NCBI GenBank assembly: GCA_937951625.1
Contig: CALFBP010000060.1
Coordinates: 1 to 64,000 of the forward strand
Length of the DNA: 64,000 nucleotides
Direction: 5' to 3'
Source: an uncultured Thermoguttaceae bacterium
GTDB taxonomy: Bacteria > Planctomycetota > Planctomycetia > Pirellulales > Thermoguttaceae
Part shown: positions 16,561 through 23,358 of the stretch, piece by piece
Position numbering within the stretch: position 1 is the stretch's first letter
Layout: each line of letters starts with the position of its first letter
Position numbers and translations under genes: made by a program
Notes under the pieces: model-generated
Seen by the model: only the letters and a program-made list of their open reading frames with translations
Databases searched by the model: none
What the model was told of the DNA's origin: nothing

Positions 16561-18138
16561 TCACAAACCTTGGGGCCGCGGGGGATCAGGCTGGTAAGGA
16601 ACGAACTGGAAGGCGTAAAGATCGGCGTCCTTGAGCACGAACCGCAAGCGGATCGGCTTGCCAGCGAGCGGCCGAAGGTCGCCTCCGTTGCGCCAACGGA
16701 CGACCATTGCCAGGTCGTCGCCAAAGATTTCTGGGCAATCGGCCAGGGCGTAGCCGGGGATGGGCTGGCCCGCCGCGTCCTGGATCTCGACCCGAATGCT
16801 TCCCGCTCCGGACGTTTCGGCGTTCAGCGTGAGGTTCCCCCCTTCGAACACGAGGGGCTTGGTGGTCATTTCCCCGCCGCCCCACGGGGCTCCCAGCGAG
16901 ACGAACCCATCGATGCGTAACGAGAGACGGCGGAAACTCACCCCAGTGCCTTGCCAGTAGTCTTCCGTGGCGAAAACCGAAAGCTCATTCGGCGCGTCGC
17001 CCAGCGGGGAGGCCGTCTCGACCAGTCCCCAAAAAACGAGATGGTCGCCATAGACCCACGAGCCGTGCCGTCGCGGGCCCGGCCGCAGCCAGGCTTCGTT
17101 CCAACGGTGGAATAGCACCCCGTCGCGGCTGGTCATGAACAGGCCGTCGGTAATGGCCATGCCGTAGCGCGGATGGGCCTTGGCCCGATCCAAACGATCC
17201 TCAAGGTCTGGTAGGGCCAGCATCGCGTCGGGCCAGCCGCGCTCGGTATAGCGCATGGGGAAGCCGATGAAAATATGCGGGGCGCGGTAGTAGGGCAGGA
17301 TTTGGTTGGTGTAGAGCTGCTGGGGGGGCGAGTTGACGTAGCGCAAATCGCTCTGGCCGGTCCAATTCACCAAATCCTTCGACACGGCGGTGCGGATCGC
17401 CCGCAGGCCCGCCGGCTTCCAGGTCGTGCCGTCGGCCACGCCCTCGGTGAAAATCCGCCAGTACGCCCGATATTCCTGCCGCACCGAATCCCAAAACGCC
17501 AGATTTTGGGAGTCAAACGCCCCTTGCGTGATGGCGGGCTTTTGGCTTGCGATCCGAAAGCGCAGTCCATCGGCCGATTCCAGCACGTACAGCCCGTGCG
17601 GCTTACCCACGATGACGCACTTATATCGGGCCTGGGGAGGGCAATTCGGGTTGGCGTCCTTGAAGACGGCCGTATGGGCCGGGTCGCCCTGGATCGCGGT
17701 GACGCTCTTTGGGGTAAGGACGATGTTGTTTTTCGTGGAACCCTCGAACTCGCAAAGCCCCAGCTCCGGACGTCGCCAATGAATCCCGTCGTCGCTCTCG
17801 GCGTAGCAAAGCACCCACGGGTGTTCCGGCCGCCCTTGGGCCGCCGCGCCGCCGTGCCGATAGTGGCCGCCGTGGTAGTACATGCGATACCGCGGCCCAT
17901 CCTGAAACACGCTGGGGTAGCCGCAAGCGTTGCCTTCCCAGGGGGCATCGGTCTTGAGCACGATCTCGCGCGGGATGGGCCGGTGCAGCTCGAAGCGTGC
18001 CCCGCCCGAGAGTTTCGCCACGAGAAAATCATCGACCAACAGCTCGCGCCGAGCGCCGATTTGGATCGGCTCGCTGGAGCTTGTCGCCTCGGACATGGTT
18101 CCCATCGTCAACAGCAGGACGGCAAACATCGCTTGCAT
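16561..18138 (-). CDS. exported five-bladed beta-propeller, glycosidase-like
   Basis: The product has 525 residues with a short N-terminal signal peptide. RRELLVDDFLVAKLSG opens the mature part and is typical of a planctomycete/verrucomicrobial family distantly related to GH32/GH43-type five-bladed propellers. Blade-like repeats such as YRMYYHGG, CYAESDDGIHWRRPELGL and FMTSRDGVLFHRW recur. The last about 110 residues form a beta-sandwich. The catalytic acids could not be fixed. It converges on the isomerase gene (25-base gap) and starts after a GGGAG ribosome site. Substrate unknown. Confidence 0.55.
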   Translation of the reverse strand: MQAMFAVLLLTMGTMSEATSSSEPIQIGARRELLVDDFLVAKLSGGARFELHRPIPREIVLKTDAPWEGNACGYPSVFQDGPRYRMYYHGGHYRHGGAAAQGRPEHPWVLCYAESDDGIHWRRPELGLCEFEGSTKNNIVLTPKSVTAIQGDPAHTAVFKDANPNCPPQARYKCVIVGKPHGLYVLESADGLRFRIASQKPAITQGAFDSQNLAFWDSVRQEYRAYWRIFTEGVADGTTWKPAGLRAIRTAVSKDLVNWTGQSDLRYVNSPPQQLYTNQILPYYRAPHIFIGFPMRYTERGWPDAMLALPDLEDRLDRAKAHPRYGMAITDGLFMTSRDGVLFHRWNEAWLRPGPRRHGSWVYGDHLVFWGLVETASPLGDAPNELSVFATEDYWQGTGVSFRRLSLRIDGFVSLGAPWGGGEMTTKPLVFEGGNLTLNAETSGAGSIRVEIQDAAGQPIPGYALADCPEIFGDDLAMVVRWRNGGDLRPLAGKPIRLRFVLKDADLYAFQFVPYQPDPPRPQGL

Positions 18139-18214
18139 AAGGCATCTCCCAAGACGTTGCGGCCTCTGAACCCGACCGCGTCTCCCTTTTGTCCGAGGGC
18201 CGCGCGAGCGTTGT

Positions 18215-18550
18215 TCAAAAATGGAGAAAGGCCTCCACGGTCACTTCGGAGTCGGGGTAGAGCGTTTTCATGATGGCCCCACAATGAACGTTGGCTGCGT
18301 CGTTGATAAGGCGGCGGTCCTTGTCCCAGACGTAATCGCGAAACGGCCGCCGATCGGCCTTTCCCTCGTTTTCGATGATCAGCGGAATCAGGATATGGGC
18401 CTCGGGTTCGTGCATCGAGACATAGTATGCAGAAAACATGGCATGGATGCTCACGGTGCCGGTCCTGCCCGCCCCCACGTTGAAAGCGTGGAACTTCCGG
18501 CGTCGGAGCAGCCTGCGAGCAATTTTCGAGATCCAGCCGCGGTGAATCAA
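18215..18550 (-). pseudogene. truncated sulfotransferase (N-terminal part)
   Basis: The 111-residue frame begins with a TTG start overlapping the stop of the upstream PP-loop gene, which suggests translational coupling. FNVGAGRTGTVSIHAMF is the PAPS-binding P-loop and first helix of the sulfotransferase superfamily. The frame ends at residue 111, before the PSB-loop region (RDP-type) and the remaining two-thirds of a normal 250-300-residue enzyme. No continuation was seen in the 77 bases before the next gene. It is therefore most likely a deletion-truncated sulfotransferase that once decorated the polysaccharide made by this cluster. Confidence 0.5.
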
Positions 18551-19743
18551 GGCTGGGAGTCCTTAAAACGAAACGACGACACGATCCTAGCCACTGCGGA
18601 CAAGGCGCGGGCCGCCGCCCGGCCAGCCGCTTGTGCTGGTTGATACAAACCGGCCAGCAGGCGCGAAGCAAGGGGAAAGCGGTACCCCTTCTGCCGGGCA
18701 AAACGGACGATTTCGCGTTGGAGCGGGTCGCGGCTCGCGAGCACCCTGCCCATGTATGCCTTGCGCCGGCGGCGATAGACCTCCAGATCAAACACCTTCG
18801 CGTAGCGGTCCAACAGACCGGCGATCTCCAGCGTGAGCTGGGTGCGCAGACATTTGAAGCACGCCGAGCAGTTTTTCTCGCCCTGGAGGGAGACGCAAAC
18901 GTCGAGCGCGGCGTATGACTCGGGGATCTCCGCCACGCGCAGCGTCTTCTCCACCCGTGTGTACTCCCCGCCCACGGAAATCGTGTCTAGCGAGTCAGTG
19001 GAAAGCAAGGGCAAGGCGACCGCGTCGCAATAGGCCATGTCACGAGCAGGACCAACATAGGCATTGACCCACGAGAGACCCGAGGCGTACAGGTAGCGTC
19101 CAATCCCGTTCTGAAGCAATAGCGGCACTGAGGCGTTCCGCGGCGTGTGGGTCTGTTGAAAGCTGAAGGGCTTATAAAACTCGCTCAGGTTCGAGTTGAC
19201 CGCGATAAGCGGAAGACCGATGCGTTCGGCCACGGCCTCGACGCGCGCGAGCCGCTGGCGGAAGAGGCGTTCGCCGCCCTCACCGTGGGACCCCACGTTG
19301 TTGAACAACAGGTGCGTCACCTCGAGCTCCGTGGATGTTTGGGCATAGTAATAGTCGGCCAGCACGCACCAGGAGTCGATGCCCGCGGAAAAACCCGTCG
19401 CAACGCCAGGCGCGCGGGGCGCGGCCGACGGGACCACCTCCGCCGCATGGACGCGGATCCGTTTCAAGGACGGAATCACCATCTGCAAGATGCGCTGATA
19501 CGCACTCGAAAGGGCATGATACAGCCTTTCCGAGACGGTTCCCTCGGCGTGCAGTTCCTCGCCGCGGGCCATAGCCGGGATCAGTAGGGCCAGCAGCGGG
19601 CCGTCCGATCGGTCCGTCAAAAAGGCCGCGTAGGCCTGGTCCACGCGATACCATAAAACTTTTTCGCCCAGCGAGCCAACGACCCGCACCGAGTAAACGG
19701 CCTCGCCGCCTTGCCGGACGATTTCAGGTCTGGAAATACGCAT
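18547..19743 (-). CDS. QueC-like PP-loop ATPase in a polysaccharide cluster
   Basis: The product has 398 residues. Residues 118-124 read FSAGIDS, a variant of the PP-loop SGGxDS motif that adenylates carbonyl or carboxyl groups. Cys283, Cys292, Cys295 and Cys298 give C-x8-C-x2-C-x2-C, the same spacing as the zinc site of 7-cyano-7-deazaguanine synthase QueC. The N-terminal 100 residues and the C-terminal basic tail do not resemble QueC, and no queuosine gene is nearby. It overlaps the upstream GT4 gene by 20 bases and the downstream sulfotransferase fragment, so it belongs to this operon. The role is probably sugar or lipid modification by amidation or a related reaction. Inferred, not known. 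Confidence 0.65.
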   Translation of the reverse strand: MRISRPEIVRQGGEAVYSVRVVGSLGEKVLWYRVDQAYAAFLTDRSDGPLLALLIPAMARGEELHAEGTVSERLYHALSSAYQRILQMVIPSLKRIRVHAAEVVPSAAPRAPGVATGFSAGIDSWCVLADYYYAQTSTELEVTHLLFNNVGSHGEGGERLFRQRLARVEAVAERIGLPLIAVNSNLSEFYKPFSFQQTHTPRNASVPLLLQNGIGRYLYASGLSWVNAYVGPARDMAYCDAVALPLLSTDSLDTISVGGEYTRVEKTLRVAEIPESYAALDVCVSLQGEKNCSACFKCLRTQLTLEIAGLLDRYAKVFDLEVYRRRRKAYMGRVLASRDPLQREIVRFARQKGYRFPLASRLLAGLYQPAQAAGRAAARALSAVARIVSSFRFKDSQP

Positions 19744-20926
19744 GAGATTTCCCCGGCGGGCCGACGATGTTTGCAGGTCCAGCGTTCGAGCGCGCGGTCA
19801 GGATCTCGCGCAGGGTATTCATCTCTTGTTCCAAGGTAAACATGGTTCGCGCGCGTTCCCAAGCGTGTTTTCCCATTTGGCTTCGCAATTCGGGCGAGTT
19901 GGCCAGACGCACCAGCGCGTTGGCGTGGCCCCGTAAATCGCCTGGCTCGACGAGGATGCCATCTTGCTCATGCTCAACGATTTCGGGAAGCGACCCGCTC
20001 CGTCCCGTAACGATGGGCAGCCCCATGGCCATGGCCTCCACGATCGAAACTCCGAAGGCCTCCTCTTGGTGCGTCTTCGGCCCGAGGCGATGGTGCGCGG
20101 TAAAGATGTCGGCCTGCTGCAATAGGTGCTCTACGGTGGATGCGTTCACGGCCCCTAGGAGTTCTATGCGATCGGAGAACGGTGAGCGGGCCTTCAATCG
20201 GCGGCAGGCCCTCCACAAGGGGCCGTCGCCAGCGAGGACCAAGCGGCCTCGCAGCCCCTGGCGGCAGGCCAGGTCGAAAGCCTGGATCAGGAGGTCTGGC
20301 CCTTTACAATCGATAAGCCTGCCCACGCAAACCAGCGTGCATTCTTCTTTCGACTCGTGGACCCGCGGCTCGGGAGGAACCGTGACGCCCAAGTATTTCA
20401 CATCAATCCGTTCCTCGGGGATGCCGATCGATGTCAACCGGCGCTTGGTGGCGAGCGAATTGGCGATGAAACTGACGTTGGGGGGCAAGGCCCGAACCCG
20501 ACCGATGTAGTTGCGAGCATGCGTCGGCCGACCGTTGTCGCCTCGATGGTCCCACGTGACGTCGTATCCGTGACAATGGACCACCACCGGCTTAGCGCAG
20601 CGCACCCAGGCTTCGTGGTAGCGCACCGCCGTGGTCAAAAAATGCACCAACACGCAATCGATCGAGTGGCGCGCGATCAGCGATTCGATCGCCGCACCTC
20701 GGAGCCGATTCCACGGCGAATCGCCGAGCAAACCAAGCGCGCCGACCACTTGGGACCACAGGGGCGGGACGGGCAGGACGTGGACCGGCAACCCCGATGC
20801 CGCCGCCGTGGGCGCGGGCCGGTCGGCAGCGATGAGCGTCAAGTCCGGGCCCAGACCTCGGGCCATGCGCCGCATCCACTCATGCGACGGGCTGTCCAAA
20901 TCGCGAGCTAAAAATAAGACTCGCAT
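19724..20926 (-). CDS. GT4-family glycosyltransferase
   Basis: The product is about 400 residues with a GT-B fold. The N-terminal domain starts MRVLFLARDLDSPSHEW. The C-terminal nucleotide-sugar domain has CVGRLIDCKGPDLLIQAF, and EAFGVSIVEAMAMGLPIV carries the E-x7-E motif of retaining GT4 enzymes. ATG 20926 is chosen because the GT fold begins there; the ORF-track start at 21082 adds 52 unrelated residues. It sits between the pyruvyl transferase and the PP-loop ATPase on the same strand. Donor and acceptor are unknown. Confidence 0.85.
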   Translation of the reverse strand: MRVLFLARDLDSPSHEWMRRMARGLGPDLTLIAADRPAPTAAASGLPVHVLPVPPLWSQVVGALGLLGDSPWNRLRGAAIESLIARHSIDCVLVHFLTTAVRYHEAWVRCAKPVVVHCHGYDVTWDHRGDNGRPTHARNYIGRVRALPPNVSFIANSLATKRRLTSIGIPEERIDVKYLGVTVPPEPRVHESKEECTLVCVGRLIDCKGPDLLIQAFDLACRQGLRGRLVLAGDGPLWRACRRLKARSPFSDRIELLGAVNASTVEHLLQQADIFTAHHRLGPKTHQEEAFGVSIVEAMAMGLPIVTGRSGSLPEIVEHEQDGILVEPGDLRGHANALVRLANSPELRSQMGKHAWERARTMFTLEQEMNTLREILTARSNAGPANIVGPPGKSHAYFQT

Positions 20927-21057
20927 CCACCGCCTCAAAGCTCTCGGAGAAGCGAAAGGGAGGGCAAACGCGCCGAAAGGCCAGGCCGCACCCGAACTTC
21001 GGCCGTTTGTTCCCTCTTGGCCCAAAAGCCTTACTGTCTTGCACCATGCATATTGGA

Positions 21058-21984
21058 TTATCTCGTGTGCGACTGGATCCACTCCCGGGCCAGGGCGCCA
21101 AACGCCACTGCCGCCTCCCGCTCCTCGATTCGCCTCGCGGCGCTCACCGTCGGCGCGTTGTCAAGCAGGCGGGGCAGTTCTTCCGTCCTTTCGGCCAAAA
21201 TCCCGTTGCCGTACCGTTCCTGGAACGCGCGGAGCTTCTCGTCCCAGGGCAGGGCGACGTAGGGAATCCCCAAGCCAAAGGCGATGATCGCGCCGTGCAA
21301 ACGGGAGCAGACAACGAGGCGGGCTGGTCGGTAGCATTGATCGAGAATGTCCATCAACCCGAAGCGGGGCCGCTGGACGTTATCGGTTCGAACCACCGGC
21401 CAACCGGACCGCCGGAGTGCCCTCCAAATGGCCTCCGACTCGGCAACGGGAACCGCATCGTGGGCCGCCAAAAGGATGGTCTTCCGCTCCGGCGCGAGGG
21501 ATGCAGCGAACTGGTCCGCCCAAACCACGGTGGGGCAAATTCCCACGTGGACATCCGGCCTCCCAAAGTGGTTTGCCGTCAGCTCGTCCCGCACATGGAT
21601 CAGATCGCAGCGATCGAACACGTCGCGGACCACGCCGCGATCCACACACGGATTGTTCTCGCCGCGGGGAAAGCACCCGCCGATTCCCCAGGCGATCATC
21701 GGCAAGCGGCAATGCTGCCGCAGATCGCTCCAGAAGGGGTTGAACACTCGGTGCAGAAGGCCGGCGCCGCCAATGATCGCGGCGCGATACCGCCGGTTAA
21801 TGAACTCGAAATCGACCGGGACCCGATGAACATTCCACGTGTCCGGTTGGAAACCGAGCATCTGCTGGATGCCAAGCACTGGCGTGTAATTGCCGATGTT
21901 GTCGACCGCGGAGTAGAACTGGATCACCGGCGACCGCACACGCCGCAGAACAGCAGGGAGACGAGAGAGGTCATGAAACCGCAC
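21058..21984 (-). CDS. polysaccharide pyruvyl transferase-like protein
   Basis: The product is about 308 residues. The start of the domain, IQFYSAVDNIGNYTPVLGIQQML, and the late CSRLHGAIIAFGLGIPYVAL match the polysaccharide pyruvyl transferase family (CsaB/WcaK type), which adds ketal pyruvate to wall or exopolysaccharide sugars. The start is uncertain: GTG 21984 and GTG 21939 are both possible and neither has a clear ribosome site. ATG 22104 is unlikely because the predicted transcription start lies only a few bases before it. It is the first gene of the minus-strand polysaccharide operon. Confidence 0.75.
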   Translation of the reverse strand: MRFHDLSRLPAVLRRVRSPVIQFYSAVDNIGNYTPVLGIQQMLGFQPDTWNVHRVPVDFEFINRRYRAAIIGGAGLLHRVFNPFWSDLRQHCRLPMIAWGIGGCFPRGENNPCVDRGVVRDVFDRCDLIHVRDELTANHFGRPDVHVGICPTVVWADQFAASLAPERKTILLAAHDAVPVAESEAIWRALRRSGWPVVRTDNVQRPRFGLMDILDQCYRPARLVVCSRLHGAIIAFGLGIPYVALPWDEKLRAFQERYGNGILAERTEELPRLLDNAPTVSAARRIEEREAAVAFGALAREWIQSHTR

Positions 21985-22115
21985 ACGCCGGTCGAGGAGG
22001 CCCCACCAGCCCCCAACCCTAGCTCGATCGCCCACGCAAGATGCCCTCCTCCTGAAGGCCCCTCGGCCCCGCACGCTGCCGGGCGGCCGTGTCCTTCCCC
22101 ACACTGGCGGCGGGC

Positions 22116-22144
22116 ATTATATTGGCCGCATCCTGCGTTGACAA
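22116..22144 (-). promoter_or_regulatory. minus-strand sigma70 promoter of the polysaccharide operon
   Basis: Read on the minus strand, TTGTCA (22144-22139) and a perfect TATAAT (22121-22116) are separated by 17 bases. The -35 box lies within one arm of a perfect palindrome, so repression by a dimeric protein is plausible. Confidence 0.65.
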
Positions 22145-22159
22145 CACAGAGTTGTCAAC
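22137..22159. repeat. perfect 9-bp inverted repeat, candidate operator
   Basis: GTTGACAAC, five bases (ACAGA), then GTTGTCAAC. It covers the -35 element of the minus-strand promoter and lies about 220 bases before the plus-strand glycosyltransferase gene, so one protein could control both directions. Confidence 0.65.
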
Positions 22160-22380
22160 ACAAAGTTCATAACACGGACCAGCCCGATCGTTGGTATCGC
22201 GGCAAGGTTCGCCGATGCGGAAAGCTGCGTATTGTTCACGAGTTCTCGGCTTGGGGGCGAGCCTTGGCCACTCCGCGTGCCTTGTCAGGGCCGCGGCGAT
22301 GCACGCAATGGCTTTTGGCCGCGGTAGCTAGAAGGCTGCGGGGTGGGCCCTGTTGCAACGCTGAAGGATTGCGTTCTTCC

Positions 22381-23358
22381 ATGCCCGAACACGGTTCTTC
22401 CCGACGGGTGAGGTTGCCGGGTTCCTTCTGGGGAATCACCGCGTATTTCAATCCCTCGCGGTACGCCAACAAGCGGACGAATTACCGCTTGTTCCGCCAG
22501 TCGTTGAAGCCGCAGGGATTGCCTCTGGTCGCCGTCGAGTTGGTTCACGACCAGGGCCCCTTCGAGTTGGAGGAGGGCGATGCGGAAATTCTCGTGCAGC
22601 GCCGTGGCGGGGACGTGATGTGGCAAAAGGAGCGGTTGCTCAACGTCGCCTTGGAGCACTTGCCAGCCGACTGCGATAAGGTCGTACTTCTGGACGCGGA
22701 TACGCTGTTTCAAAATCGGCATTGGGTGACCGATACGGCCGAACTCCTCGAGCAATATACCTTCGTGCAACCGTTCTCCTACTTTTTCTGGCTCGGGCCA
22801 GAATGCACCGCCGCGCCGGCTCGGGCATCGGTCAAGGCCAGCGTCGGTTATTGTTCGGTTCACGGCCTGAACATCCGTAGCGGTGTTCCCGGCGCCGCGT
22901 TGGCGGCGCGGCGTAGCGTGTTTCAGACCTTCGGGATTTACGACCGCATGATCCTCGGAGGCGGCGATCGTATCTTGATCAGCGCCGCCCTGGGCATCGA
23001 TCCCGCCGACAACCCTCACATCGACGCCCATTCGGCCAGTCTGTTGGACGACGCCCGCCAGTGGTGCCGGGCAGTCGGCGCGGCCGGCCAGCAGAGTTTG
23101 GGTTATACGGAGGGCAATTTATTCCACCTTTGGCACGGATCCTTTCGTAATCGACGCTATGGCAGGCGAGTCCGCCTCTTGGCCGACTTTGACGTTCGCA
23201 ACGACATTCGCGTTGATGATCAAGGGGCCTGGGCCTGGGCCTCCAACAAGCCTCGCCTTCATGCCGCCGTCCGCCGGTATTTCGAGCTTCGCAACGAGCA
23301 AGGCGGGGCGGCCGCAGTTTGGTGGAGGCGATGGGTCCGGTCCTTTCTGAAGCGGTAA
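22381..23358 (+). CDS. GT-A-type glycosyltransferase
   Basis: The product is about 325 residues. KVVLLDADTLF carries a DxD-type motif for metal and nucleotide-sugar binding, preceded by QKERLLNVALEHLP, a pattern seen in GT-A enzymes that handle surface glycans. MILGGGDRILISAALGI and NLFHLWHGSFRNRRYGRR follow as acceptor-side and C-terminal elements. ATG 22381 is the likely start; the ORF-track frame from 21007 runs antisense through the pyruvyl transferase gene and is spurious upstream. The gene is divergent from the polysaccharide operon and probably works with it. Confidence 0.75.
   Translation: MPEHGSSRRVRLPGSFWGITAYFNPSRYANKRTNYRLFRQSLKPQGLPLVAVELVHDQGPFELEEGDAEILVQRRGGDVMWQKERLLNVALEHLPADCDKVVLLDADTLFQNRHWVTDTAELLEQYTFVQPFSYFFWLGPECTAAPARASVKASVGYCSVHGLNIRSGVPGAALAARRSVFQTFGIYDRMILGGGDRILISAALGIDPADNPHIDAHSASLLDDARQWCRAVGAAGQQSLGYTEGNLFHLWHGSFRNRRYGRRVRLLADFDVRNDIRVDDQGAWAWASNKPRLHAAVRRYFELRNEQGGAAAVWWRRWVRSFLKR

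Follow-up and report, generated by a model that had tools for sequence, protein, structure and literature searches.

A widespread QueC-like PP-loop protein family with a predicted zinc site, linked to polysaccharide pyruvyl transferases and surface-glycan gene clusters

QueC-type enzymes belong to the synthesis of tRNA and DNA bases and, as has lately emerged, to phage defence. QueC uses ATP and ammonia to turn a carboxylate into an amide and then into a nitrile, and the residues essential for preQ0 formation lie in its YxQxHxxE, VPxRN and YPDC motifs (PMC13329287). In type IV CBASS and in qatABCD, QueC-family proteins have protein N-termini as their targets (PMC12424860), and LarE has no C-x8-C-x2-C-x2-C motif (PMC13329287). 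NASAT/WbpG, which works in surface glycan synthesis and has acetamidino chemistry, carries a PP-loop and a zinc tetracysteine site in which the cysteines are split as CxxC-Xn-CxxC (PMC10607449) and the order of the motifs is reversed from that of QueC (PMC13329287). A 2026 survey of PF06508 mentions no polysaccharides and no glycosyl or pyruvyl enzymes, the sole exception being WbpG, an O-antigen enzyme that it names in one subcluster (PMC13329287).

The window that we analysed is the whole stretch of planctomycete DNA, 64,000 nucleotides long, and one of its genes encodes a protein that resembles QueC and lies among polysaccharide genes. The name PsQ was coined in this analysis for the family of this product. 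A search of the open-access literature found no description of a polysaccharide-linked QueC family, and we found no enzymatic or glycan-composition data for members of the family. PsQ is a new family in a known superfamily and probably modifies the surface sugars of bacteria in an ATP-driven reaction that has not been described. It would add surface-sugar chemistry to the QueC superfamily and would point to a glycan modification possibly missed by composition studies.

The PsQ gene and its operon

The PsQ gene was called as an open reading frame with an ATG start and a product of 398 aa (Table 1). A first-pass annotation had credited this product with an FSAGIDS PP-loop and a C-x8-C-x2-C-x2-C motif with the exact cysteine spacing of QueC. 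Both motifs are present, at residues 118-124 and 283-298, and the spacing is that of QueC in the window protein, while the spacing to the first cysteine varies among its relatives. The same annotation had noted an N-terminus different from that of QueC. The AlphaFold2 model, which is confident (pLDDT 93.1, pTM 0.90), agrees with this, since about 110 residues made up of three beta-strands, helices and then two more strands precede the core and have no counterpart in QueC.

Table 1. Features of the PsQ operon and its flanks in the window
Feature	Position	Strand	Basis or remark
111-aa ORF overlapping the PsQ stop	18215..18550	-	sulfotransferase-like loop by eye only
PsQ, predicted QueC-like zinc PP-loop protein	18547..19743	-	ORF; family of 115+ members; AlphaFold2 model; hhalign to QueC
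C-terminal helical extension, residues 320-390	18574..18786	-	secondary structure of the model
C283-x8-C292-x2-C295-x2-C298, expected zinc site	18850..18897	-	motif conservation; aligns with the QueC Cys motif
PP-loop FSAGIDS, residues 118-124	19372..19392	-	expected ATP phosphate binding; [ST]xGxD in 115/115 members
N-terminal extension, residues 1-110	19414..19743	-	secondary structure of the model; hhalign to a DUF6395 protein
GT4 glycosyltransferase	19724..21082	-	PF13692 101 bits; PF00534 100 bits
Polysaccharide pyruvyl transferase PssT	21058..22104	-	PF04230 54.3 bits
Promoter-like site TTGTCA-17-TATAAT upstream of PssT	22116..22144	-	11/12 matches
Perfect palindrome GTTGACAAC-N5-GTTGTCAAC, 9-bp arms	22137..22159		overlaps the -35 region; candidate operator

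The GT4 gene lies upstream of PsQ and overlaps it, as annotated at first pass, by 20 bp, and its first family-fitting Met is probably near position 20926. The next gene upstream, on the same strand, encodes PssT, the sole PF04230 gene found in the genome, in agreement with the operon shared with a pyruvyl transferase that had been proposed. The promoter-like site is the single such match in positions 18000-22600, a count that is not significant alone as shuffled sequences average 0.9. The palindrome is the sole site in the genome at three or fewer mismatches (0 for the reversed control) and is possibly the operator of a dedicated regulator of the PssT-GT4-PsQ operon. The description of the 111-aa ORF as a sulfotransferase fragment was not borne out, as the ORF had no match in Pfam, NCBIfam, PDB sequences or plasmids; the loop in question is FNVGAGRTGT.

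Extent of the PsQ family and its relation to QueC

The window protein had no match in Pfam, NCBIfam or PADLOC and none among PDB sequences (phmmer), and a search of genome contigs with this single sequence returned nothing. An alignment-based search of the contigs was needed to recover its relatives, and it gave 166 confirmed loci, 79 of which were fetched. PsQ was also found on plasmids by tblastn, in Azospirillum, Gloeothece, Paracoccus, Gemmobacter, Nostoc, Priestia and the archaeon Halorientalis, where the homologues are always annotated as 'hypothetical protein'. Members occur in Bacillota, Bacteroidota, Cyanobacteria, Planctomycetota, Verrucomicrobia, several Proteobacteria, Actinomycetota, Chloroflexota, Nitrospirae and other phyla. 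The best score of any relative scanned was 16.5 bits against PF06508 (QueC; cut-off 22), which the window protein did not match, and 16.3 bits against PF19932 (DUF6395; cut-off 25). PsQ is a coherent family that extends across many bacterial phyla and one archaeon and lies outside Pfam and NCBIfam.

All 115 members collected have [ST]xGxD plus invariant C, NC, C and C, although the conservation of the cysteines is partly pattern-selected in this set because most of the loci were fetched by a Cys-motif pattern. N185, R263 and K266 are nearly invariant in the same set. A less biased test of conservation came from searching 392 genomes from the same phylum with a profile, which gave strong PsQ matches in 21; the Cys motif was recognised in all but a few of the proteins found in this way, and a single copy, a truncated one, had no recognisable PP-loop. 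The retention of [ST]-x-G-x-D and of the four cysteines in 115/115 of the relatives first collected indicates that the motifs of PsQ are more than chance, and the PP-loop Asp, on which the first-pass reading had been staked, is kept.

Two to four copies of PsQ are present per locus in L071:3706-10518, L029, L025, L033, L087 and L126, some of them in one polypeptide. A protein of 845 aa (L087:5260-7794) carries two copies in one chain, and up to four copies stand in tandem in L071. These tandem copies suggest several acceptors or several sites.

Comparison of PsQ with 25 planctomycete QueC proteins by hhalign gave 94.1% (E 1.3e-7) over 186 collinear columns that run from the PP-loop to the Cys motif, and comparison with TilS gave 17% over the PP-loop only. 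The best matches in a fold search against the PDB were TilS and NcsA (prob 0.93-0.96, TM about 0.3), with none below an E of 0.001, and a search of PDB sequences with the PsQ profile returned PP-loop patches only. A library of viral models was used because the PDB fold matches were weak, and in this library, in the structural comparison with QueC called for at first pass, the top Foldseek matches were phage QueC models (prob 1.0, TM by target 0.61-0.64).

PsQ and QueC thus have in common the order of the PP-loop and the cysteines and a similar predicted fold, whereas the N-terminal extension and the C-terminal helical tail set PsQ apart from QueC, its scores stay below the Pfam cut-off and its neighbours are glycan genes and not queD or queE. 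The YxQxHxxE, VPxRN and YPDC motifs of QueC are absent from the PsQ family consensus, and the active site of PsQ beyond its ATP and zinc parts is therefore not comparable with that of QueC. A canonical QueC with YGQRHxxE, VPARN and YPDC is encoded on another contig of the same genome (C1), QueD-type matches are on contigs C90, C44 and C33, and about 83 kb separate PsQ from QueA on their common contig, so that the earlier remark that PsQ has no queuosine genes nearby was accurate. Since PsQ has none of these QueC motifs and a canonical QueC is encoded elsewhere in the genome, PsQ is a branch of the QueC superfamily and not a QueC. The label 'QueC-type' of the first-pass annotation is upheld by the profile alignment and the predicted fold as a statement of kinship and does not hold as one of identity. 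The same genome (G000) also has, outside the window, a second and diverged QueC-like gene (C90:17726-18825, 95 bits) that adjoins a QueD-type gene, and similar second QueC matches are present in many relatives.

QatC of the qatABCD defence system (NF041925, PDLC02214) has a QueC core with N- and C-terminal extensions and a length similar to that of PsQ, and membership of PsQ in this family was considered for its similar extensions and rejected on sequence. The QatC profiles gave no PADLOC match for the window protein, 10 bits for the best relative and 12.4 bits with NF041925 against a cut-off of 280, and hhalign aligned two patches only (47% and 15%), the motif regions of the PP-loop and the cysteines. 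The spacing to the first cysteine is longer in QatC, and no qat genes were seen near PsQ. Comparison of PsQ with a DUF6395 protein by hhalign gave 82.6% over the N-terminal region and the PP-loop, SGGVDS, which the two apparently have in common, whereas the C-terminal DUF6395 domain was not matched above threshold by PsQ. The DUF6395 proteins look like a sister branch of PsQ on these alignments, and a function for DUF6395 may follow from that of PsQ. One DUF6395 protein (L014:15820-17133) is encoded in a Priestia plasmid cluster that holds two PsQ genes.

Association of PsQ with pyruvyl transferases and glycan genes

PssT, scored with its own HMM across the loci, was present in 45/92 PsQ loci and at 500 bp or less from PsQ in 31/92, counts that include near-duplicates (about eight from Psychrobacter and five from Azospirillum or Roseomonas). 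In roughly half of the loci the DNA fetched, some of it from short contigs, showed no PssT. Among 118 immediate neighbours of PsQ, a set from which most near-duplicates were left out, PF04230 occurred most often, with 22, and next came the GT2, flippase, ABC/Wzt, Asn_synthase and GT4 families. One QueA was the only queuosine gene in the table of neighbours, which covers the first 25 of 118 families, and neither defence genes nor RNA or cofactor genes recurred there; the weak PF06508 matches in the same table include AsnB-like PP-loop proteins. The neighbourhood survey proposed at first pass, which set glycosyltransferases against queuosine genes, thus found the relatives chiefly beside pyruvyl transferases, and also beside glycosyltransferases, flippases and ABC exporters, and not mainly in queuosine operons.

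Comparison with control loci showed that PssT was near 0/30 QueC, 0/30 TilS and 0/14 QatC genes, versus 5/21 PsQ loci in the same 1.5-kb frame. PssT was present in 17/21 of the genomes with PsQ versus 119/371 of the others in the sample of 392 genomes (Fisher p 1.1e-5), and the two genes were close together on one contig in at least 8/21 of the PsQ genomes. When the 36 PssT-linked members of the PsQ tree were ordered by gene arrangement, PssT was upstream of PsQ in 20, downstream in 14 and fused to it in 2. The link required 21 changes on this tree (FastTree, rough). Supported branches force 14 or more of these, so that by this rough count the association of PsQ with PssT arose or disappeared no fewer than 14 times. 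The two fusions, in which PsQ is N-terminal and PssT C-terminal, are planctomycete proteins (L067:4859-6838, 660 aa, and L078:1-1650). A GT2-PsQ fusion with an adjoining piece of PssT was found in L111, and in Azospirillum the PssT-PsQ pair stands alone amid unrelated genes. A PssT-GT2 fusion is also present among the loci. The link of PsQ to surface-glycan biosynthesis is well supported.

R148, H308 and K328 of CsaB are critical for PEP binding (PMC10435577). An Arg, the His of an RLH motif and a Lys are kept in 43/43 partner PssTs, that of the window included, and appear to correspond to these three residues by their order, with a His-Lys spacing of 20 residues as well. The PssT of the window is divergent at several positions that are conserved in the other partner PssTs.

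Proposed function and its alternatives

We give about an even chance to the reading that PsQ is dedicated to glycans and, as a zinc PP-loop ATP pyrophosphatase of the QueC superfamily, forms an amide on a carboxylate of a surface-polysaccharide precursor. ATP-dependent amidation is the simplest reading because PsQ retains the parts of QueC for ATP and zinc but not its substrate motifs, and travels, in operons and in fusions, with a PssT that puts a carboxylate-bearing ketal on sugars; the QueC-like fold, the collinearity with QueC and the glycan context go with it. PsQ would convert ATP to AMP and PPi and would bind zinc at its four cysteines. It would most likely adenylate the carboxylate of the precursor, and ammonia or a small amine would then displace AMP to give the amide. 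The best candidate for the carboxylate would be the ketal-linked pyruvate installed by the partner PssT, and the alternative may be a uronic acid from that same repeat unit. The existence of PsQ loci that lack PssT speaks for substrates besides pyruvate. The first-pass suggestion, an ATP-dependent amidation, nitrile formation or similar modification of a surface sugar or its carrier, is partly supported, by the glycan setting and the kinship with QueC, with the chemistry and the substrate inferred. More tentatively, and at well below even chances, PssT and PsQ may form a widespread two-enzyme module in which the carboxylate of the ketal-linked pyruvate becomes an amide or an amine conjugate, an undescribed glycan group. 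If this is true, a residue that was charged would end up neutral or cationic.

PsQ might instead act as NASAT/WbpG does, with ATP activating the N-acetyl group or another amide of a glycan sugar and ammonia entering to give an acetamidino or similar group. The two have a PP-loop, a zinc tetracysteine and the setting of surface glycan synthesis in common (PMC10607449), and PsQ loci are rich in glycosyltransferases. All four cysteines of PsQ, however, follow the PP-loop with the spacing of QueC, while in NASAT they are split and the order of the motifs is reversed (PMC13329287), and the recurrent partner PssT makes a carboxylate (a pyruvate ketal) and not an acetamido group, which makes this chemistry unlikely. 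Modification of a protein, as proposed for QatC and Cap9, would have PsQ attach a small acid to PssT or to another glycan enzyme, at its N-terminus or on a side chain. The extensions that flank the PsQ core, like those of QatC, and the action of the QueC-family proteins of type IV CBASS and qatABCD on N-termini (PMC12424860) are consistent with it. It is less likely because PssT follows PsQ in both fusions and has no free N-terminus there, and the patchy alignment with QatC and the recurrence of glycan genes rather than defence genes beside PsQ also argue against it, so that we hold it to be quite improbable.

Continuation from the amide to a nitrile, which would give a glycan with a cyano group, is more doubtful still. 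We know of no nitrile-bearing polysaccharide, which counts against such a product, and the residues that QueC needs for preQ0 are not conserved in PsQ. On the other side, QueC itself performs both steps (PMC13329287), and one peptide pathway is known to include an AsnB-like nitrile synthetase (PMC13060819). The least probable reading, to which we give very little weight, is that PsQ transfers sulfur or is some other AMP-activating enzyme, of the LarE, NcsA or TilS type, and is found in glycan clusters by chance. TilS and NcsA are its best PDB fold matches, but those matches are weak and the alignment with TilS stops at the PP-loop, LarE is without the cysteine motif of PsQ, and RNA or cofactor genes do not recur nearby.

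Amidation of the glycan could also involve a neighbour of PsQ. AsnB-like ligases of glycan clusters are, like the PsQ that we propose, ATP-dependent amide formers next to glycosyltransferases, and they stand beside PsQ in several loci (L040:2648-4495, L044:862-2691, L041:5997-7829, L067:6819-8672 and L078:1529-3529); they differ from it in their larger size, about 610 aa, and in their C-terminal domain. These neighbours start with MANF or MAHL, that is, without the N-terminal glutaminase Cys, and are perhaps amide ligases that take an amine other than glutamine-derived ammonia. The AsnB-like protein beside PsQ could itself be the amide former. ATP-grasp genes (TupA-like, of the sugar-transfer type) and one TauD dioxygenase gene also adjoin PsQ (L053:9202-10311, L071:1814-3004, L010:10211-11383, L012:10165-11373 and L066:9034-10098), which may point to additional tailoring in these clusters, by amide formation or by oxidation.
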